From Candidatus Thorarchaeota archaeon (GTDB taxonomy: Archaea; Asgardarchaeota; Thorarchaeia; Thorarchaeales; Thorarchaeaceae), in NCBI GenBank assembly GCA_004524595.1, contig SDOA01000108.1, positions 1 through 13,951 of the forward strand: a stretch of DNA of 13,951 nt, given 5' to 3'. The position numbers and the translations under genes were made by a program. Positions 1,970 through 13,951 of this stretch are shown here, piece by piece. Positions within the stretch are counted from its first letter, which is position 1; each line of letters starts with the position of its first letter. Below the pieces are notes generated by a model that was not told the origin of the DNA, did not search any database, and saw nothing but the letters and a program-made list of their open reading frames with translations.

Positions 1970-4417
1970 ATGTCAAGTTCGTGGGTTCTAAAAACTCGAC
2001 AGGGAAGTGAAGCAGGAAAAGAGATACTATTGCGAGAAGCTCTAGCAACTCATATGCGTAGTACTCGAGATAGACAACTATTTGCAGAACTATTACGAGA
2101 ACCTCAACCTATTGAGGATGTGTTCTCTTTTTTTGCATCATTTTACCTCCATAGTTATCAAGGAATACGATTGCTTAACCCTTCAGACACACCTGAATTG
2201 ACGACTGAAGGAAAAGATGAGTTAGGACAAGAGGAAAGACGACAACTTGAGCTTGAAATACGACAGATATTTGGTGATAAGCAACGGGAGGAACTTGATA
2301 CTGCACAGCTCTGTAGTGAATTGATAATTAAACTCGCTAATGAATTAGCTGACAAAGATCCATCTTCTGAATTGAAGCAACATGTCATTGATTTAGTAAA
2401 AGAGTATTTGAAGAAGATACCTTCAGAATACACACCTAATCATGATATCGATCTGATTCTTGAAGTTACTGGATGGGGTCAAGAATGGCGTGATGAACTC
2501 TATTCTAAAGCCTCAGGGCTCAAAGAAAGTTCTCTCTCTCTAAGAGAAGAATTGCTTCGTGACCACCTCTCTGAAGTTCCAGAAACAACCATCCTAAAAA
2601 AGGCTCTAGAGATGATTTTTGGAAGGATAGAATATGCTAAGGGAAGACTTGCTGATGCACTAGTTCCTGTAAAGAGCTGGGATGCGATAGCATCTTCAAT
2701 TATGGCCCGTTTCTGTAAGGATTCTACTTATCTTAGTAGTGTCATAAATGCTCATAAAATAAGGCTTGAACTTCTTGAAGTTATCGAAGAAGATTATGAC
2801 ATTCCAACAACAATAGATGATTATGAAAGACGTCTAGCAGCAAAAGTCGCTGATCCAATAGCATCAATACTTGCTTCCAATCCATTAAAAATACTTGATA
2901 CTCTCTCACATCTTTCTCATATAAGTGTAGATGACCTTAAAGCACAGCTTCGTAGAAAAGGGATTGATGACCCATTGGCAATTACTTCAGGATTACAATC
3001 GCTGAGTAATCTACCCACAGAGTCTTCATCTGGTCCCCAAGTTAGTAAAGATGAGTTGGAGATGCTCGAACGTTCTTTGAAGACTCTTGAAAAAATAGAA
3101 AACACACTAGAAAAACCTGTTAAAGGACTTTTAAAATCAAAAGGATTACGCTCTTCAGAGCTAGATAAAATCACTATAGATCTTCTCATGAAAGATAGAA
3201 AGACCTTAGTTGGGATTGAGTTGGAAGTCCTTGCTGAGCTTGAGAAGAAGATGCGAGTACCACCTCCAGAAGAAGTTAAGAGATTGATGGAAATCCGTGA
3301 CCAAGTGAAGACAGGAGCACTTAGTTCTCTTGGAATTTCATCCGCACGAGATTTTAGTCAACAACGAGTCGAGGAGGAAACGATAGCTTCAATTCGAATG
3401 GATATCATCTGGCATTTTACGACAGGTATCTTAACTAGCCTTACGCGGGTGGTTGAGTCATATATCCGGTCGAAACAAGATTTACTTCGCATAAAGGCTC
3501 TTTTGAAGAGTATCTATGAAGATACGGACATTAATCTTCAATTCTTGCGAGAAGAGATTCTCATTGATTTGACTTCGATGCGAATCTACGAGATGAAGAT
3601 AGTTCATCCTGAATTAGATGCGAGTGCCATCTGTACTTGGATGCACGCTCGATTATCAAGTAAAGATATGATGGCAGCAAAGAAAGAACTAGAAACAACT
3701 CAAAGCCCAGTGTTTGAAGGAATTCTGGATATGCCTTTGGAAACAGAAAACCTAGAATTTGATAATTATGGAATTGCTTTTGACATTATGCAAAGATTTC
3801 TGAAAAAAGAAAGACTTGAAAAACTTGCTAAAGAAGAATATGCTTTTGAAGCAAAGCAAAAGGAACAGAAAGCAGTTGCCTCGAAACGTGAAGGTCTAGA
3901 TGTGCTAATGTATTTGCACAATAAATCTGCAACTGTGTTCAGAGCAATAAGTAGAGTTGGTACTAAGGGCTTAGAATGGACACATAGTGATACAACCAAG
4001 TGTGCAAATCTCTTGACTTACTTCATAAAGACAAATAGAGGACGTATGATATGTTCAGCTTGTGGTGCGGTACCAAAATCGAGCAAATGCGATCAACATG
4101 GTAATACTTTCATGAAGGAAGCCACTGACATGGATAATCTTGCAATTTTCATCATGCGTGGAATATATGAAATCAAAGATGGTCTAATAGGAGCTGGAAA
4201 GGGTGCTGAACAAATGCCTTGGGATAAAGCGAAAGCCTCTCTTGAAAGAGAGATTGGCATATTGAAACGTAAAGGAAAATTAACATCTAAGACAAATCTA
4301 AAAGAGCTCTTACCAGGTGAAATGAATTACATTGTCGGTCCAGCTGTATGTGCTATAATTGGTCAATATTTCAATGAGTCATTAATATATGCTGCTAGAC
4401 GTGCTGACATTGCATAG
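1970..4417 (+). CDS. 815-aa helical protein with C-terminal zinc-finger-like motif, unknown function
   Basis: This large, probably cytosolic, predominantly helical protein has several charged stretches likely to form coiled coils. Examples are about residues 355-400, around the LERSLKTLEKIENTLEK segment, and about 610-650, which is rich in Lys and Glu. No membrane segment or signal peptide is evident. Near the C-terminus Cys695, Cys698, Cys707 and His710 form a CxxC-x8-CxxH arrangement (ICSACG...KCDQHG), compatible with one bound zinc. A conserved-looking helical tail follows. The start is the ATG directly after a strong Shine-Dalgarno site. The gene forms an operon with the preceding large helical protein. 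I do not recognise the family; a structural or scaffolding role is only a guess from composition. The gene ends 2 bp from the end of the convergent cutA. Confidence 0.88.
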   Translation: MSSSWVLKTRQGSEAGKEILLREALATHMRSTRDRQLFAELLREPQPIEDVFSFFASFYLHSYQGIRLLNPSDTPELTTEGKDELGQEERRQLELEIRQIFGDKQREELDTAQLCSELIIKLANELADKDPSSELKQHVIDLVKEYLKKIPSEYTPNHDIDLILEVTGWGQEWRDELYSKASGLKESSLSLREELLRDHLSEVPETTILKKALEMIFGRIEYAKGRLADALVPVKSWDAIASSIMARFCKDSTYLSSVINAHKIRLELLEVIEEDYDIPTTIDDYERRLAAKVADPIASILASNPLKILDTLSHLSHISVDDLKAQLRRKGIDDPLAITSGLQSLSNLPTESSSGPQVSKDELEMLERSLKTLEKIENTLEKPVKGLLKSKGLRSSELDKITIDLLMKDRKTLVGIELEVLAELEKKMRVPPPEEVKRLMEIRDQVKTGALSSLGISSARDFSQQRVEEETIASIRMDIIWHFTTGILTSLTRVVESYIRSKQDLLRIKALLKSIYEDTDINLQFLREEILIDLTSMRIYEMKIVHPELDASAICTWMHARLSSKDMMAAKKELETTQSPVFEGILDMPLETENLEFDNYGIAFDIMQRFLKKERLEKLAKEEYAFEAKQKEQKAVASKREGLDVLMYLHNKSATVFRAISRVGTKGLEWTHSDTTKCANLLTYFIKTNRGRMICSACGAVPKSSKCDQHGNTFMKEATDMDNLAIFIMRGIYEIKDGLIGAGKGAEQMPWDKAKASLEREIGILKRKGKLTSKTNLKELLPGEMNYIVGPAVCAIIGQYFNESLIYAARRADIA

Positions 4418-4834: not shown

Positions 4835-6247
4835 ATGATTGGTGATTCTGTGGGAAAATTCATTCCTGAAGGTGTGATGCCTGCTCTCGTTACGCCTTTC
4901 ACAAGAGATGGCGACATTAACGAAGAAGGTTTCAGACAAGTTATCGAGTATACAATAAGTAAGGGAGTCACAGGAGTAGTGCCGGCAGGTACCACTGGAG
5001 AATTCTCTTACATGAGAACTGAAGAGCGCAAGAAACTACTGAAATTAACGGTTGAATATGTTGACGGACGTGTTCCAATTGTTGCAGGAACTGGTCAACA
5101 TAGCACTCGTGCAACTGTTGAATTGACGAAATACGCAGCGGACGTTGGTTGTGATGCAGCTCTTGTAATCTCACCTTACTATCTCCGACCTACTGATAAG
5201 GGCTATTACGATCATTATGCAACAGTTGCAAGAAAGGGGAACTTGCCGATAATCTTGTACAATCTTCCTCAATGTACTTTAGGTATCCTTAATTCAAATG
5301 TTGTCGAGGATCTAGCTCAGCTGGATACAGTTGTTGGTATTAAAGATAGCAGTGGCAATGTTCCCTATCTACTTGAGCTAATTCAAAAACTAAAGGGAAA
5401 AATCGAAGTTCTTTGTGGGGCTGATGAATGCTTCCTCTCATCAATTGTCGCGGGTTCAAAGGCTGCTATTATGGCTTCAGCTAATGTAATTCCACACATC
5501 TGGTTGGAAGTCATGAAACTTGTAAAAGAAGGGAATCTTGAGAAAGCTGCAGAATTGCAAAGAGAGGCTCAAACATTTGCTAGGATGGTACTAAAGTATG
5601 GTGCAGCGCCTCCAGTCAAAGCCGCTCTAAGGATAATGGGGATTGATGCTGGGAAGAGTCGTATGCCTCTTAATACAGGTGGAACACTTACCCCTGAAGT
5701 GAAAGAAGAGATTCGGATTGAACTTGAAAAACTGGGTGTAATTGAAAAGAAAGACCACGAATCTATAGAAAAGGGCATCAATATTGTTGAGGTTCTTGAG
5801 AATCAAGGCATCATTCTTGGACATTCTGCTGGTCTATTAACAAGTCATGCCTCAAATGATGTCGTGTCTGTTGGTATTGCGGCAGGACCCAAAAATGGGT
5901 CTATAGGCAAAGCCTTTGTGAAATTACTTACAATGCCTAAAATTGGCCATGAGGCATTAACAGTTATTTTGGAACCAAATTTGGCGGTGAAACCTAGTAG
6001 TTTGATGCTGCCTACACGTAAAATCAAATCCATGCGACAGGCTTCATTGTTCTATGGACCTGTTCAATCAGGGGCTGCTAAAGCAATTGCAACACTTCTT
6101 GAAATTGGCAAAGTCCCTAAGAAATCACTGAGCCAAGATGTCATAATAATGGCATTGGATATCAATCTAGATTCAAGAGACCGTAGAATGGTGACTAATG
6201 CAACACAAGAAGTAGTTGAAACCGCTCTTAAAGGAATATGGAGGTAA
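4835..6247 (+). CDS. DapA/NAL-family aldolase fused to a degenerate Fae domain (copy 1)
   Basis: The 470-residue protein has two domains. Residues about 12-300 are a DHDPS/N-acetylneuraminate-lyase (beta/alpha)8 barrel with GTTGE (52-56), SPYY (113-116), catalytic Tyr142 in YNLP and Schiff-base Lys170 in GIKDSSG. Cys147 sits where true DHDPS has the arginine that binds aspartate semialdehyde, so lysine-pathway activity is doubtful. Residues about 326-470 match formaldehyde-activating enzyme: GSIGKAF, PNLAVKP (381-387), RQASLFYGPVQ (401-411) and the following helices. The conserved Fae histidine (the H of AHID) is replaced by Ser345, and the C-terminal HPFA tail is absent. The Fae domain is therefore probably not active alone. 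The start at 4835 is likely but lacks a strong Shine-Dalgarno site; GTG at 4850 is an alternative. It is coupled to the homologous next gene. Confidence 0.9.
   Translation: MIGDSVGKFIPEGVMPALVTPFTRDGDINEEGFRQVIEYTISKGVTGVVPAGTTGEFSYMRTEERKKLLKLTVEYVDGRVPIVAGTGQHSTRATVELTKYAADVGCDAALVISPYYLRPTDKGYYDHYATVARKGNLPIILYNLPQCTLGILNSNVVEDLAQLDTVVGIKDSSGNVPYLLELIQKLKGKIEVLCGADECFLSSIVAGSKAAIMASANVIPHIWLEVMKLVKEGNLEKAAELQREAQTFARMVLKYGAAPPVKAALRIMGIDAGKSRMPLNTGGTLTPEVKEEIRIELEKLGVIEKKDHESIEKGINIVEVLENQGIILGHSAGLLTSHASNDVVSVGIAAGPKNGSIGKAFVKLLTMPKIGHEALTVILEPNLAVKPSSLMLPTRKIKSMRQASLFYGPVQSGAAKAIATLLEIGKVPKKSLSQDVIIMALDINLDSRDRRMVTNATQEVVETALKGIWR
6240..6245 (+). promoter_or_regulatory. Shine-Dalgarno site deciding the start of copy 2
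   Basis: GGAGGT overlaps the TAA stop of copy 1 (6245-6247) and precedes the ATG at 6253 by 7 nt. This favours 6253 over the in-frame ATG at 6238, which would place the site inside the coding sequence. It also indicates translational coupling of the two aldolase-Fae genes. Confidence 0.8.
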
Positions 6248-6252
6248 TAAGA

Positions 6253-7731
6253 ATGTCAGAAACAAAATTCCGTTTCCAGGGAGTCTATCCTGCCCTAGTC
6301 ACACCCTTTACCGAGAAAGGCATCAATGAAAAGCAGTACAGAAAATTGATAGATTATGTTATCAAAGCCGGTGCTACTGGGATTGTTCCCTGCGGGACCA
6401 CGGGAGAATTCACAAGCATGAAATTTGAAGAAAAAGCTGAAGCTATAAAGATTGCTTGTGAAGCGGTGAAAGGTAGAGTACCCGTTCTTGCTGGTACTGG
6501 TGCTGCCTATACTGGGGATGCAATCAAGTTAACACGTAGAGCGGCTGAACTAGGAGCTGATGCAGCGCTTGTTGTGTCACCTTATTTCTTAAAACCTTCA
6601 CCAAAAGAAATCTATGAGCATTTCGAACGAATTGCTAATAACAGTGATATCCCTATCTTTGTCTATAACATCCCACAAGTGACGGGAGTCCCACTCCACT
6701 GGACAATGATTGATGGTTTACGGGAAATTGATGGGATTATAGGCCTCAAAGACTCCAGTGGAGATCTCATCAATTTAACTACAATCCTAGTACGCAGACC
6801 CGAAGATTTCCAAGTTGTAATTGGTCATGATGAAGTTGCTCTTCCAGCTTTGGCGTCAGGATGCGATGGCGCTATCTTAGCAAGTGCTAACGTGTTTCCT
6901 GATCGATATATCAAAATGCAATCAGCTCTTGCGAGTGGAGATCTAAAAGAGGCACGCATCATTCAACGCAGTATTCAAAAAACTGTTCGCATCTTTGTGA
7001 ACAATGGCGGTGGGATGGCTGTAAAAGCTGCATTAAATATGATTGGCATTCCAGTTGGTGATGCGAGGTTACCTCTGCAAATCAGCGATTCTCTGGGTTA
7101 CGCTAATCTCGATGAGCTTCGATGTTGTTTAGAAGACCTTCAATTGATACCACATGGCTCTGTTGTCTTCAAAATGGGGAATAGATCAATTGAAGCTGAG
7201 AACTACCCCAAAGCAGTTGGAATGGTACCTGATGTTGTAGAGGACCTTACTCTTCTCCATGGCGAAGCTCTCTTTGGTTCAAATACAGAAGTTGCTCATG
7301 TTGATCTAATTCTGGGGATTAAGGACGGACCAATGAATGAAGCATTAGCAAACGCTGGTAAGATTGTAGAGGACACACATCCTTCGAACATTATCAAAGA
7401 CTTGGAATTAACTACTGTATTTGCACCAACAGTTACAATCACCTCTGAGAGTCATAAGAAAATGGTCTACGAGGTTGCTCAGAAGGCTATAGTGGACGCT
7501 GTAAAACGGACCATCACAGATATGATAATTCCAGATGAACTGGTAAAGGATTTGATTCTTGCAGTAAATGTGTTCGTGCATCCGAGTGCAGCAAATCCGA
7601 AGCGAGTCCATATTAACAACTTCATAGCCACCAGACATGCAATTCGGCGGGCTATAGAAGATAGACAGAGTGTTGATGAGATTATCGCACAAAAAGACTC
7701 TGCTCGGCATCCATTTGCATATAATCCATAG
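6253..7731 (+). CDS. DapA/NAL-family aldolase fused to an Fae domain retaining the histidine (copy 2)
   Basis: The 492-residue protein has the same architecture as copy 1. The aldolase barrel (about 8-300) has GTTGE (48-52), SPYF (109-112), Tyr138 in YNIP and Schiff-base Lys166 in GLKDSSG. Val143 stands at the DHDPS arginine position. A linker of about 30 residues leads to the Fae domain (about 336-492). It has HGEALFG, VAHVDLILG with the conserved His349, the VNVFVHP strand, the FIATRHAIRRAIE helix and the family C-terminal tail SARHPFAYNP. It lacks the central PNLPxKPxTL and FGPxQ motifs that copy 1 keeps; this segment is about ten residues shorter than usual. Fae joins formaldehyde to tetrahydromethanopterin, giving the methylene form. 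The fusion suggests that formaldehyde is made or used by the aldolase half (inference). The gene is followed by a hairpin terminator. Confidence 0.91.
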   Translation: MSETKFRFQGVYPALVTPFTEKGINEKQYRKLIDYVIKAGATGIVPCGTTGEFTSMKFEEKAEAIKIACEAVKGRVPVLAGTGAAYTGDAIKLTRRAAELGADAALVVSPYFLKPSPKEIYEHFERIANNSDIPIFVYNIPQVTGVPLHWTMIDGLREIDGIIGLKDSSGDLINLTTILVRRPEDFQVVIGHDEVALPALASGCDGAILASANVFPDRYIKMQSALASGDLKEARIIQRSIQKTVRIFVNNGGGMAVKAALNMIGIPVGDARLPLQISDSLGYANLDELRCCLEDLQLIPHGSVVFKMGNRSIEAENYPKAVGMVPDVVEDLTLLHGEALFGSNTEVAHVDLILGIKDGPMNEALANAGKIVEDTHPSNIIKDLELTTVFAPTVTITSESHKKMVYEVAQKAIVDAVKRTITDMIIPDELVKDLILAVNVFVHPSAANPKRVHINNFIATRHAIRRAIEDRQSVDEIIAQKDSARHPFAYNP

Positions 7732-7747
7732 GTAGAAAATCTTCTAT

Positions 7748-7787
7748 ACGATGCGGTATTATCTCCGCATCGTGCCTCTTTCTTTTC
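7748..7787 (+). terminator. hairpin plus pyrimidine-rich tail after the aldolase-Fae operon
   Basis: A perfect 9-bp stem (ACGATGCGG, 7748-7756, pairing with CCGCATCGT, 7765-7773) with an 8-nt loop is followed by a T/C-rich run to about 7787. It begins 16 nt after the stop codon. Archaeal termination mainly needs the U-rich tract; the hairpin may also protect the 3' end. Confidence 0.7.
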
Positions 7788-7946
7788 CGATGTCATTTAC
7801 GGACTATTGGCCATTTGTTAAGTATGATTTGAGATATAAAGCACGAATCATCACAAAAGATAAAACTCACAAAAAGTCGTGACTCTGAAAAAATTAAAAT
7901 CAATCTAGACGCTCTTTAGATGCATTCTAGGCCAATCCTACATCTG
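7788..7946. other. intergenic stretch with no gene seen
   Basis: This AT-rich stretch is part of the 321-bp gap between the second aldolase-Fae gene and the small 56-aa gene. I see no convincing reading frame, tRNA or structured RNA. A GTGATGA on the minus strand at about 7845 resembles a C box but has no matching D box. Confidence 0.5.
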
Positions 7947-7963
7947 GTTTTTCTATATATACT
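7947..7963 (+). promoter_or_regulatory. TATA-box promoter of the 56-aa gene
   Basis: A T-run leading into TCTATATATAC is the best TATA-like element in this gap. Transcription would start near 7985, leaving a leader of about 65 nt before the ATG at 8053. A second weaker element (ACTATAATG, near 7972) would give a shorter leader. Confidence 0.5.
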
Positions 7964-8052
7964 CTATTGTACTATAATGCAACTAAGTCTTGCATCCCTC
8001 TTAGACTGTCGCGTCGCCACAAATTAACACAACATCCGTCGGAGTTTAAGCA

Positions 8053-8223
8053 ATGGCTGAAACTTACATAATCCATATCAACGATATTCCATCAAAGAAA
8101 ATTCGAAAGAATGTTCGTATTTTCCTAGAGGATCATGATGTAGCAATTGTTGGTGAAGATGGGCAGAAACTTGAAGTTGTTCTCGAAAGGAATCAACTCA
8201 TTGTTGTGCGTGACATGTATTGA
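8053..8223 (+). CDS. 56-aa protein of unknown function
   Basis: This small frame starts at ATG 8053 and stops at TGA 8221-8223. A GGAG Shine-Dalgarno site at 8041-8044 lies 8 nt before the start, and a TATA-like promoter lies upstream. The composition is protein-like: alternating hydrophobic residues (YIIHINDIP, VAIVGEDG, LEVVLERNQLIVVRDMY) suggest a small mostly beta protein, with a basic KKIRKNVR stretch at 15-22. There are no cysteines and no membrane segment. I do not recognise a family. The promoter, ribosome site and terminated upstream operon point to a monocistronic gene. Confidence 0.65.
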   Translation: MAETYIIHINDIPSKKIRKNVRIFLEDHDVAIVGEDGQKLEVVLERNQLIVVRDMY

Positions 8224-8340
8224 AAAGCACAAAGTTGCGATGAAGTATCCAAATCTCTCTCCCCACTATGCCCAAAAATCATGTAAGTTTCAGCCCACAA
8301 TTGTGGCTATTTATCTATCAAAACCATGATTAATAGAAAG

Positions 8341-8413
8341 TGGCAAATCTCAGCCTGCTCTTGGCTCGTCATCGCTTTTGCTCAGCCAGGGGTAACTGCC
8401 TCATCGATTGCCA
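8341..8413 (-). ncRNA. candidate C/D box small RNA (2'-O-methylation guide)
   Basis: Read on the minus strand, the order is: stem arm TGGCAA (8413-8408), C box TCGATGA (8407-8401), a 15-nt guide, D' box CTGA (8385-8382), a 6-nt spacer, C' box GCGATGA (8375-8369), a second 15-nt guide, D box CTGA (8353-8350), GAT, and closing arm TTGCCA (8346-8341). This is the archaeal C/D sRNA architecture, with equal guide lengths and a 6-bp terminal stem. A TATA-like TTGATAAG at 8443-8436 lies about 26 bp before the predicted 5' end. Weak points: both C-type boxes have C where the consensus RTGATGA has T, three bases separate box D from the stem, and the guides are slightly long. I could not assign a target. 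Confidence 0.5.
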
Positions 8414-8507
8414 GTTATCTCTCATGCTTCTTACCCTTATCAAATTGTTTACTAGACGCAATCTTCTTAGCCGAGAGTTTCTATCCTCCGTTAAGGTGCT
8501 ATTCACG

Positions 8508-9647
8508 GTGAATGAATCCAGAGTGATATCACTTCTGAAAGACATGGTTTCTACTAATTCAGAAAACCCTCCTGGCAGAGAAGATGCTATTGCTAAGATA
8601 ATAAAAGAACACGTAGAAGCATATGGAATTTCGTGCGTATCAATAGGACCGAGAAAGAGACCTAATCTGATTTTTTTCAGTCATGAAGAACAGAAGGGCG
8701 ACCTTCTTTTTCATGGCCACATGGATACAGTTCCCATTGGTGATCTTAGCTCTTGGGAATATGATCCATTTGGTGCAGAAGTCCACGAAGGTCTTCTCTT
8801 CGGTCGTGGTGCTTGTGATATGAAAGGTCCTGTTTCAGCTATTGTAGAAGCTCTCATTCTTTACACCGAAGAGAAACATGAACAGCCTCTCTTGGTGTTA
8901 ACTACATCTGACGAGGAAAGTGGATGTTCTGGAGCTGGAGAAGTAGCAAAAAGTGGTAAACTCTCAGGTGTCAAATTTGGAGTCTGTGCTGAGCCAACTG
9001 ATTTGCAGGTTTTAATCGGAGAGAAGGGTATCTTCTGGTTCAAAGTGATTGCAGAAGGAAAATCTGCACATGGGTCGAGACCTGAAGAAGGGATTAATGC
9101 CATCAATGACTGCATGGATGCAATCGGAATAATTGCATCAAAACCATTCCCATATGATGAAGACGAGCTTCTTGGGAAGCCAACACTCAATATTGGAATG
9201 ATTGAAGGTGGCATCAAAGTAAATGTTGTACCTGCTCATTGTGAGGCTCAATTAGACATGAGAACAGTGAAAGGACAGACCCCAGAATCTCTTACAAATC
9301 TGATGAACGAACGTCTTGATTTGGCAGGGCTATCCAATAGAGTTCGAATCCAATATATTCATGGAAAGCCAGCTGTTTCTACTCCATTGAACTCAAAGAT
9401 AGTGAATATTACAAAAGACCAAGTCTTACAGGTTACTGGAGTTGTACCATCCATAAGTACAGCAACTTATGGTACTGACTGCTCTGTGTTACAACCTAAG
9501 ATTGGAATAACAAACGTGATCTGTGGGCCAGGTTCTATCAAACAAGCGCATCAACCGAATGAGTTCATCAGATTAGATCAACTCTACCAATCTGTTGATG
9601 TATATCTACGGATTGCGAGAAGTTTTGATAATCAATCCAGTAGCTAG
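8508..9647 (+). CDS. M20 family metallo-deacylase/peptidase (ArgE/DapE-like)
   Basis: The family hydrolyses amide bonds of N-acyl amino acids or small peptides using two zinc ions. Numbering from the GTG at 8508 (379 residues, normal for the family), the sequence shows HGHMDTVP with zinc ligand His71 and Asp73, GRGACDMKGP with bridging Asp104, DEES with catalytic Glu136 and ligand Glu137, AEPT with Glu162, the dimerisation-domain motif SAHGSRPEEG, and C-terminal ligand His348 in QAHQPNE. The frame is open back to an ATG at 8340, but those 56 codons do not look like M20 sequence and overlap the antisense sRNA candidate. GTG 8508, with AAGGTG upstream, fits the family start; GTG 8496 is an alternative. 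Substrate is not determinable: acetylornithine, succinyl-diaminopimelate, LysW-linked lysine or a dipeptide are all possible. Confidence 0.9.
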   Translation: MNESRVISLLKDMVSTNSENPPGREDAIAKIIKEHVEAYGISCVSIGPRKRPNLIFFSHEEQKGDLLFHGHMDTVPIGDLSSWEYDPFGAEVHEGLLFGRGACDMKGPVSAIVEALILYTEEKHEQPLLVLTTSDEESGCSGAGEVAKSGKLSGVKFGVCAEPTDLQVLIGEKGIFWFKVIAEGKSAHGSRPEEGINAINDCMDAIGIIASKPFPYDEDELLGKPTLNIGMIEGGIKVNVVPAHCEAQLDMRTVKGQTPESLTNLMNERLDLAGLSNRVRIQYIHGKPAVSTPLNSKIVNITKDQVLQVTGVVPSISTATYGTDCSVLQPKIGITNVICGPGSIKQAHQPNEFIRLDQLYQSVDVYLRIARSFDNQSSS

Positions 9648-13227: not shown

Positions 13228-13951
13228 ATTTCAAAGAAGAAATGGGGCAAGTCCGCCACCAAGACCGAGAAGATAATTCGCGACGCAGTTCCGAAACCAG
13301 ACGTTCTAACTGGAATAGACGAGTATCTAAGCAAAGCAAGATCGGTCACTTGCTATGATGTTGCTAATCGTTTCAATGTACGAATGAGCGTTGCTCGTAG
13401 AATTCTAAGAGAAAAGGAAGCGAAAGGGGAACTTATACCCTACATCAGAGAGAGTGGATTTGTTGTGTATACCACCCGAGCTGAACTTGAAAAGAGGGAA
13501 GGTGGCGTGCCAGTCATGATTGCTGATGCTCTTGAAGAAGTTGCATCTACTGTCCCTGAAAGACCTGTCATCACAGGTGAGATGGATGAGGCTCTTGCGG
13601 CTGCAGCGACTCCAGGTGCTGTGAAACCAAGCAAACTAGCTAGAAAGCGAAGAGAAGCAGGTGAACGTAAGGAACGTAAGGATCAACGTCCTGAAGTTGT
13701 AGTTGAGCCACTTGAAGTTATGGAAAGTCCACGGATGCCAATCGTTGAACCAAAAGAGGCAATAAAATCAGTAGAGAAGAAGGAAGAGAAACCCAAGAAG
13801 GCTACTGAGAAGAAGGAAGAGAAACCTAAGAAGGCTACTGAGAAGAAGGAAGAGAAACCTAAGAAGGCTACTGAGAAGAAGGAAGAGAAACCTAAGAAGG
13901 CTACTGAGAAGAAGGAAGAGAAACCTAAGAAGGCTACTGAGAAGAAGGAAG
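13228..13951 (+). CDS. ribosomal protein S25e-like protein with long repetitive Lys/Glu tail, 3'-partial, apparent ATT start
   Basis: The frame is open from the TAG at 13198-13200 to the window end. The first about 90 residues resemble small-subunit protein S25e, a winged-helix ribosomal protein of archaea and eukaryotes. The similarities are the basic SKKKWGKSATK N-terminus, a VTCYDVANRFNVRMSVARRILRE helix-turn-helix, a wing, and the ending VVYTTR. An Ala/Pro/Lys-rich tail of at least 150 residues follows, far longer than normal S25e. It ends in tandem KKEEKPKKATE repeats cut off by the window. There is no in-frame ATG, GTG or TTG before 13384, which lies inside the winged helix. Initiation at ATT 13228 (or ATC 13222) after AGGAG is the simplest reading; a sequence error is the alternative. 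A non-ribosomal nucleic-acid-binding role is possible. Confidence 0.78.
   Translation, partial: MSKKKWGKSATKTEKIIRDAVPKPDVLTGIDEYLSKARSVTCYDVANRFNVRMSVARRILREKEAKGELIPYIRESGFVVYTTRAELEKREGGVPVMIADALEEVASTVPERPVITGEMDEALAAAATPGAVKPSKLARKRREAGERKERKDQRPEVVVEPLEVMESPRMPIVEPKEAIKSVEKKEEKPKKATEKKEEKPKKATEKKEEKPKKATEKKEEKPKKATEKKEEKPKKATEKKE
13774..13951 (+). repeat. 33-bp in-frame tandem repeats, at least 5.4 copies
   Basis: Full units begin at 13774, 13807, 13840, 13873 and 13906, with a sixth cut by the window end. Each encodes EKKEEKPKKAT. Only the first unit differs, with CCC for CCT at one proline codon. Near-identity at the DNA level indicates recent slippage or unequal recombination. It also means the copy number may be wrong in an assembly. 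Confidence 0.95.

Follow-up and report, generated by a model that had tools for sequence, protein, structure and literature searches.

Why should an archaeon keep, side by side, two genes that each join a pyruvate-type aldolase to a formaldehyde-activating enzyme (Fae) domain? Such a pair, called copy 1 and copy 2 here, lies at positions 4,835 to 7,731 of a 13,951-nucleotide stretch of DNA from a Candidatus Thorarchaeota archaeon (assembly GCA_004524595.1, contig SDOA01000108.1), referred to below as the window. A preliminary description had read each gene as a DapA/NAL-type barrel followed by Fae and had taken the two as equivalent bifunctional enzymes. The fusion is borne out, both domains being matched in both genes; the equivalence had to be given up when the Fae residues were tabulated. 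As judged from the alignment, each Fae domain of the window is incomplete, in a complementary fashion, and single-copy fusions elsewhere in the Asgard archaea are fuller. Because each copy lacks part of the conserved Fae set, and a complementary part, it is improbable that either could function as Fae by itself, and the Thor pair is most readily understood as a single enzyme encoded by two genes.

Both reading frames are open, and the barrel family PF00701 is matched at 260.3 bits in copy 1 and 247.5 bits in copy 2. The Fae family PF08714 is matched at 91.0 and 100.7 bits against a cut-off of 27, scores that rule out a chance match and confirm the Fae assignment originally made for both C-terminal parts. 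A Pfam search found no match to PF00215 (OMPDC/HPS) in either copy at E 0.001, and the architecture is distinct from Fae-Hps, as had been supposed. The Fae portions alone match the Methylobacterium extorquens Fae 1Y5Y in the PDB with E values of 2.7e-10 (copy 1) and 6.9e-18 (copy 2). The NCBIfam Fae equivalog model TIGR03126 gives 85.9 bits for copy 1 and 114.2 bits for copy 2, both below its cut-off of 118.05, so neither, taken singly, would be classified as a Fae enzyme. Structure prediction of each protein, which the preliminary description had called for, gave AlphaFold2 models with a mean pLDDT of 89.2 and a pTM of 0.74 for copy 1, and 90.2 and 0.88 for copy 2. Searches with the whole models returned barrel matches only, among the matches listed and with no separate search of the Fae part; the assigned fold of the Fae domains rests on sequence plus the models.

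Is the fusion itself real? Protein searches covered the best 120 relatives per query, and genome searches were centred on the Asgard phylum (227 genomes). Both domains are present in all 120 relatives of copy 1. Those of copy 2 comprise 111 full-length fusions, five shorter pieces with both domains, and four proteins in which only the barrel is seen (P0230, P0231, P0234 and P0235); these four break off suddenly or run into an unrelated tail, and appear to be truncated. Organism names, where given, are Thorarchaeota, Promethearchaeota and Promethearchaeia for both copies, and the titles of 28 genome loci name Thorarchaeota in 25, Lokiarchaeota in two (L016, L020) and simply "archaeon" in one. 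With 11 more loci and the window, these make up 40 Thor-type loci, all located via copy 2 or via the pair, and in every one of them copy 1 immediately precedes copy 2. Exactly two Fae matches occur in each of 16 genomes behind Thor-type loci. A further 31 genomes were picked for their place around named Thor genomes in the phylum scan; two matches occur in 26 of these, a single match, at the edge of a contig, in one, and no match in four. The scan of the whole phylum found a Fae match in 152 of the 227 genomes, the matching frames including Fae-Hps-like ones of about 400 residues and a class of about 500 residues. All 16 of the longer frames that were fetched are single-copy DapA-Fae fusions, and the best 120 relatives of one such fusion all carry both domains, under the names Promethearchaeota/Promethearchaeia, Hodarchaeota and Thorarchaeota (and bacteria in two cases, which are probably misbinned). 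The fusion is real, and old within the Asgard archaea: an assembly artefact or a set of separate genes, the doubt raised at the outset, is ruled out by the relatives with both domains, the conserved order of the pair and the single-copy fusions elsewhere in Asgard.

What has happened to the two Fae domains? They were aligned (118 copy 1 and 109 copy 2 proteins) with 30 Fae-Hps proteins and 18 single-copy fusions, numbered from the Met of the 1Y5Y sequence; copy 1 relatives under 440 residues (P0075, P0099, P0109) and the copy 2 pieces P0230–P0238 were excluded here and from the conservation counts. Single-copy fusions retain H22, D24, P58, N59, P64, G85, P86, Q88, F119–P122, R129, N133, N134 and the H164–P165 tail. 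In copy 1 the usual residues are Ser and Gly where Fae has H22 and D24, Asp at position 119, and either Asp or Asn at position 121. Its H22/D24, FVHP and NN motifs are lost together with the C-terminal tail; its PN..P and GP.Q segments stay (E57-P58-N59, P64, R78-Q79-A80, G85-P86 and Q88 are retained). Copy 2 retains H22, D24, F119–P122, R129, N133-N134 and the tail, with 58–61 deleted and G85-P86 mostly lost. In a set thinned to less than 90% identity, with more single-copy fusions added (42 single-copy, 95 copy 1 and 86 copy 2 proteins), 56 positions are at least 95% conserved in the single-copy fusions. Copy 1 alone keeps 14 of them and copy 2 alone 28, eight are kept by both and six by neither; the one-copy-only positions are thus 42 of 56 (Fisher p 6.7e-4). 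When one copy's pattern was shifted along the other's, a test that addresses dependence between neighbouring positions, a discordance of 42 was reached by one of 55 shifts. The window's own pair gives 16 positions for copy 1 only, 28 for copy 2 only, nine for both and three for neither. Of the six residues that we take to make up the Fae site (H22, D24, L53, K71, T73 and Q88), the window's copy 1 keeps Q88 only, and its copy 2 keeps H22, D24, T73 and Q88. At the sequence level, the pair thus shows the reciprocal segment loss, in strictly paired paralogues, that a complementary hetero-oligomer would be expected to leave.

A second pair shows how this division may have come about. Genome G018, treated as non-Thor since it is listed apart and carries a Fae-Hps-like gene (L080), has a gene for a 312-residue protein, followed by two tandem DapA-Fae genes (L170:6303-7715 and 7722-9191). 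H22/D24 and the tail are missing from the first, the PNL segment and Q88 from the second. A tree of full-length fusions places the first with copy 1 (100/99) and the second with copy 2 (99/98), and an independent duplication in G018 is not supported, since its members cluster copy by copy with the Thor pair. The first gene keeps 13 of the 14 copy-1-only sites and the second six; the second keeps 25 of the 28 copy-2-only sites and the first nine. By these residue counts, the G018 pair would fit a less advanced stage, the site having been partitioned step by step after a single ancient duplication.

How might an enzyme divided in this way work? The known Fae active site lies between neighbouring subunits. 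In the Asgard fusion, a pyruvate-dependent class I aldolase joined to Fae would hand formaldehyde to, or take it from, tetrahydromethanopterin (H4MPT) without ever setting it free; the aldolase half would most likely make or split 4-hydroxy-2-oxobutanoate (HOB), which is pyruvate plus formaldehyde. In many Asgard genomes one gene suffices, presumably as a homo-oligomer. In the Thorarchaeia and G018, two tandem copies would share out the interface site, copy 2 giving the face made of H22/D24, FVHP, NN and the tail, and copy 1 the face made of PN..P and GP.Q. Because the residues of the Fae face are split between the copies, we infer that their products assemble into an obligate hetero-oligomer in which only one type of Fae interface works; both aldolase halves keep their Schiff-base lysine. 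The two Thor proteins probably work only together. For the reading as a whole (formaldehyde channelled between the aldolase and H4MPT, HOB chemistry, and a Thor pair that is an obligate hetero-oligomer with a shared Fae site) we would put the probability at roughly 45%. As to the cofactor, Mch (PF02289), an H4MPT enzyme, is present in all 12 genomes tested (five Thor-type, six with single-copy DapA-Fae and one with only a Fae-Hps-like gene). Fae-Hps was not found in any of the five Thor-type genomes tested, since the sole OMPDC-family match in each is one gene outside the Fae pair (below cut-off in one genome).

Why HOB? The argument comes from neighbouring genes, and its support is indirect. 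The "427" family is an unknown, highly conserved Asgard protein of about 427 residues (L095:5626-6906, A1) found in 126 of the 227 genomes; the "312" family, also unknown and of about 312 residues (L096:5873-6817, A2), is found in 12, and its gene replaces the 427 gene beside DapA-Fae in some genomes. Among the matches listed, at least 44 Fae genes lie in frames of 495–522 residues (16 read as fusions; the shorter or odd frames G080:C131, G085, G109, G110 and G100 are left out), of which 38 adjoin 427, four adjoin 312, and two (G193, G194) have these elsewhere. In eight further loci, chosen for holding 427, DapA-Fae follows 427 in all eight. In G193/G191 and G194, 427 and 312 occupy the same slot of one gene order (L165/L169 versus L173), which suggests that they have the same role. 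Neither protein is matched in Pfam, NCBIfam or the PDB at standard thresholds, weak Pfam matches alone appearing at E up to 10; one 312-family member has a weak similarity to U32 (E 0.2), and a comparison of the two profiles gave a probability of 6.9, so that homology is not shown. Turning to genomes that have no Fae match, 30 loci with 427 have a class I aminotransferase directly after it in 25 cases and a homoserine dehydrogenase close by in 17. Mch is absent from all 28 Fae-less genomes tested and present in all three tested in which 427 is accompanied by DapA-Fae. Since 427 adjoins either DapA-Fae or, in Fae-less genomes, an aminotransferase and a homoserine dehydrogenase, HOB is the simplest metabolite that would join the latter two to a pyruvate aldolase and Fae, and the HOB reaction is our reasoned guess. 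A bolder version seems unlikely to us: the Thor Fae would have become an obligate hetero-oligomer by reciprocal decay after duplication, and Asgard archaea would make HOB from pyruvate and an H4MPT-bound one-carbon unit, as a natural counterpart of the synthetic homoserine cycle, feeding a 427 enzyme that Mch-less Asgard feed from aspartate via homoserine and the aminotransferase.

The 427 gene is found in 39 of 47 Thor-type genomes. In nine of ten Thor-type 427 loci the preceding gene is a small one that matches TIGR04002 below threshold, for which the S component of an ECF transporter is a guess, and a threonine-synthase gene is near in five of the ten. In G103–G107 (L204–L208) the 427 match spans one in-frame stop each (TAA in G103, G104, G105 and G107, TAG in G106), which could be a gene end, a frameshift or recoding.

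Do these fusions act as Fae at all? Both Fae domains could be catalytically dead and now serve the aldolase as oligomerisation modules or as pterin or formaldehyde sensors, the losses reflecting relaxed constraint. This would account for the catalytic-type residues missing from each copy, for the alteration of L53, K71 and T73 in nearly all single-copy fusions as well, and for both equivalog scores falling short. However, the retained residues are near-invariant in more than 100 relatives per copy and mutually exclusive, which is not random loss, and no Fae other than the pair was found in any of 16 genomes, while Mch is kept in all five of those tested; on balance we consider this somewhat unlikely. 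Alternatively, copy 2, with H22 and D24 kept, could be a reduced lone Fae with a changed site, and copy 1 a regulatory aldolase subunit. Copy 2 does outscore copy 1 with the Fae model (114 versus 86 bits) and keeps more sites alone (28 versus 14), but the deletion of 58–61 and the frequent loss of G85/P86 in copy 2 coincide with conservation of P58, N59, G85 and P86 in copy 1, and the two copies strictly co-occur, which makes a single active copy improbable.

The aldolase half could also be an ordinary one, either the DHDPS of the lysine pathway or a sugar-acid (KDG-type) aldolase, with Fae as a formaldehyde-detoxifying passenger. Its catalytic residues are well kept: Lys170 in copy 1 and Lys171 in copy 2, which we take from the DHDPS literature to be the Schiff-base lysine, are conserved in 100% of copy 1 and of the single-copy fusions and in 96% of copy 2, and conservation of this lysine, of the YN.P tyrosine and of the TT pair lies at 94–100% in each group. 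Both copies thus combine the PF00701 fold, the Schiff-base lysine and the YN.P tyrosine of a class I pyruvate aldolase. They also pass the TIGR00674 dapA model (224 bits for copy 1 and 237 for copy 2, cut-off 206), and a DUF4147/MOFRL gene, presumably of the glycerate-kinase type, lies near two single-copy loci. Against this, Arg138, which in DHDPS binds aspartate semialdehyde, is mostly replaced in all three groups (Cys in 100% of copy 1 and 96% of single-copy fusions, Val in 92% of copy 2), which speaks against DapA proper; the KDG-aldolase model gives 121 and 111 bits, far under its cut-off of 390; and the neighbour pattern of 427, aminotransferase and homoserine dehydrogenase points elsewhere. 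An ordinary aldolase is, in our view, distinctly unlikely.

A number of points weigh against the channelling hetero-oligomer. Fae is a pentamer, and a ring of five cannot alternate two subunit types. Alignment positions are not independent, and in a stricter set of 36 positions that are also conserved in Fae-Hps (eight copy 1 only, 16 copy 2 only, eight both, four neither) p is only 0.08 for the Thor pair. All 139 single-copy fusions compared retain H22, D24 and Q88, but only seven have L53, one (G077) K71 and six T73; given these altered residues, the fusions may bind H4MPT differently or not at all. The position of DHDPS Tyr107 is Phe in 99% of copy 2 (Tyr in 88% of copy 1 and 99% of single-copy fusions). 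Because Tyr107 in DHDPS extends across the dimer into the partner subunit's site, a mixed dimer would complete the copy 2 site with the copy 1 tyrosine, an analogy that is suggestive only. An outgroup-rooted tree of the barrels sets copy 1 outside copy 2 plus the single-copy fusions (97/84, long branches flagged), yet a sister clade of the two copies is not rejected (AU p 0.34). The 427 gene is beside the pair in none of the 40 Thor-type loci as fetched. Finally, tests of the homoserine route, in hand-picked, related genomes whose completeness is unknown, gave mixed results: homoserine dehydrogenase is missing in 13 of 19 DapA-Fae genomes (present in six) and in one of seven others, and present in 14 of 14 controls; homoserine kinase (ThrB) is above cut-off in none of 26 genomes versus 11 of 14 controls; threonine synthase (ThrC) is above cut-off in 20 and aspartate semialdehyde dehydrogenase in 13 of the 26. 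With homoserine dehydrogenase so often missing and homoserine kinase above cut-off in none, a flow from HOB to threonine is not claimed, and a route from HOB through homoserine to threonine is not established.

The features of the pair are collected in the table. Since relatives of copy 2 mostly have 491–492 residues, its translation may actually begin at the ATG at 6253, in which case the two genes would be separated by 5 bases instead of overlapping by 10. Elsewhere in the window, positions 1–1965 and 1970–4417 encode two large proteins (at least 654 and 815 residues) without a family save for a sub-threshold HetE-N match, and of the 40 Thor-type loci, 29 have a relative of the first and 36 a relative of the second upstream of the pair. 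An ORF at 13384–13951 has a short tandem KKATEKKEEKP repeat and runs off the window end. PADLOC gave no match for four flanking ORFs.

Table. Features of the paired aldolase-Fae genes, in window coordinates
Feature	Position	Strand	Basis
Copy 1 (T1), DapA-type aldolase + partial Fae domain, 470 aa	4835..6247	+	ORF, Pfam, AlphaFold2 model
Copy 1 aldolase barrel, PF00701, residues 12-281	4868..5677	+	Pfam, sequence and structure searches
Copy 1 Lys170, predicted Schiff-base lysine, equivalent to E. coli DapA K161	5342..5344	+	Conservation
Copy 1 Fae domain, PF08714, residues 341-466; PN..P and GP.Q segments retained	5855..6232	+	Pfam, alignment
Copy 1 Ser345-Val346-Gly347 in place of Fae H22-I23-D24; H and D gone	5867..5875	+	Alignment
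Copy 2 (T2), DapA-type aldolase + partial Fae domain, 497 aa (492 aa from ATG 6253)	6238..7731	+	ORF, Pfam, AlphaFold2 model
Copy 2 aldolase barrel, PF00701, residues 13-281	6274..7080	+	Pfam, sequence and structure searches
Copy 2 Lys171, predicted Schiff-base lysine	6748..6750	+	Conservation
Copy 2 Fae domain, PF08714, residues 342-493; H/D segment, FVHP, NN and HPF tail retained, PNL and GP lacking	7261..7716	+	Pfam, alignment
Copy 2 His354-Val355-Asp356, equivalent to Fae H22-I23-D24; H and D retained	7297..7305	+	Alignment
Overlap of copy 1 and copy 2 genes (near abutment if copy 2 begins at 6253)	6238..6247	+	ORFs; adjacency in 40/40 loci

What would follow if the proposed reading were true? 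The pair would record in its sequence the division of a subunit-shared active site between duplicated genes, to the point where each depends on the other, and a less advanced stage of this process would still survive. Asgard archaea, among which the Thorarchaeia are related to the archaea from which eukaryotes arose, would possess a formaldehyde-channelling pyruvate aldolase, and with it, perhaps, a natural C1-to-C4 step that the consulted passages of PMC8879981 describe only within an engineered pathway. In the literature searched (titles and abstract openings, few subscription journals; including PMC5020050, PMC9931769, PMC11291895 and PMC7278568), no description of a DapA-Fae fusion was found.

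Among known systems, the archaeal Fae-Hps is alike in fusing an aldolase that makes or uses formaldehyde to Fae, and several Asgard genomes carry it together with the single-copy DapA-Fae. It differs in having Fae at the N-terminus and, as partner, an OMPDC-family domain rather than a pyruvate aldolase of the DHDPS fold; its Fae keeps H22, L53, K71, T73 and Q88 in 30 of 30 proteins and D24 in 26 of 30. The stand-alone Fae of M. extorquens (1Y5Y, 1Y60), the product of one gene and a homo-oligomer, is homologous to a domain that is here fused and, in the Thorarchaeia, split over two paralogues. The DHDPS/NAL superfamily (DapA, HOGA1, KDG aldolase) shares the fold and the Schiff-base residues, the Arg138 of DHDPS being missing here; we know of no member fused to Fae. 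In the synthetic homoserine cycle of E. coli, as far as the consulted part of the paper describes it, a promiscuous aldolase (RhmA) makes HOB from pyruvate and formaldehyde ahead of a HOB aminotransferase, and HOB is called non-native (PMC8879981). The step from pyruvate and formaldehyde to HOB is the same as that proposed here; the cycle is engineered and uses a different aldolase, and the Asgard fusions would be its natural counterpart.

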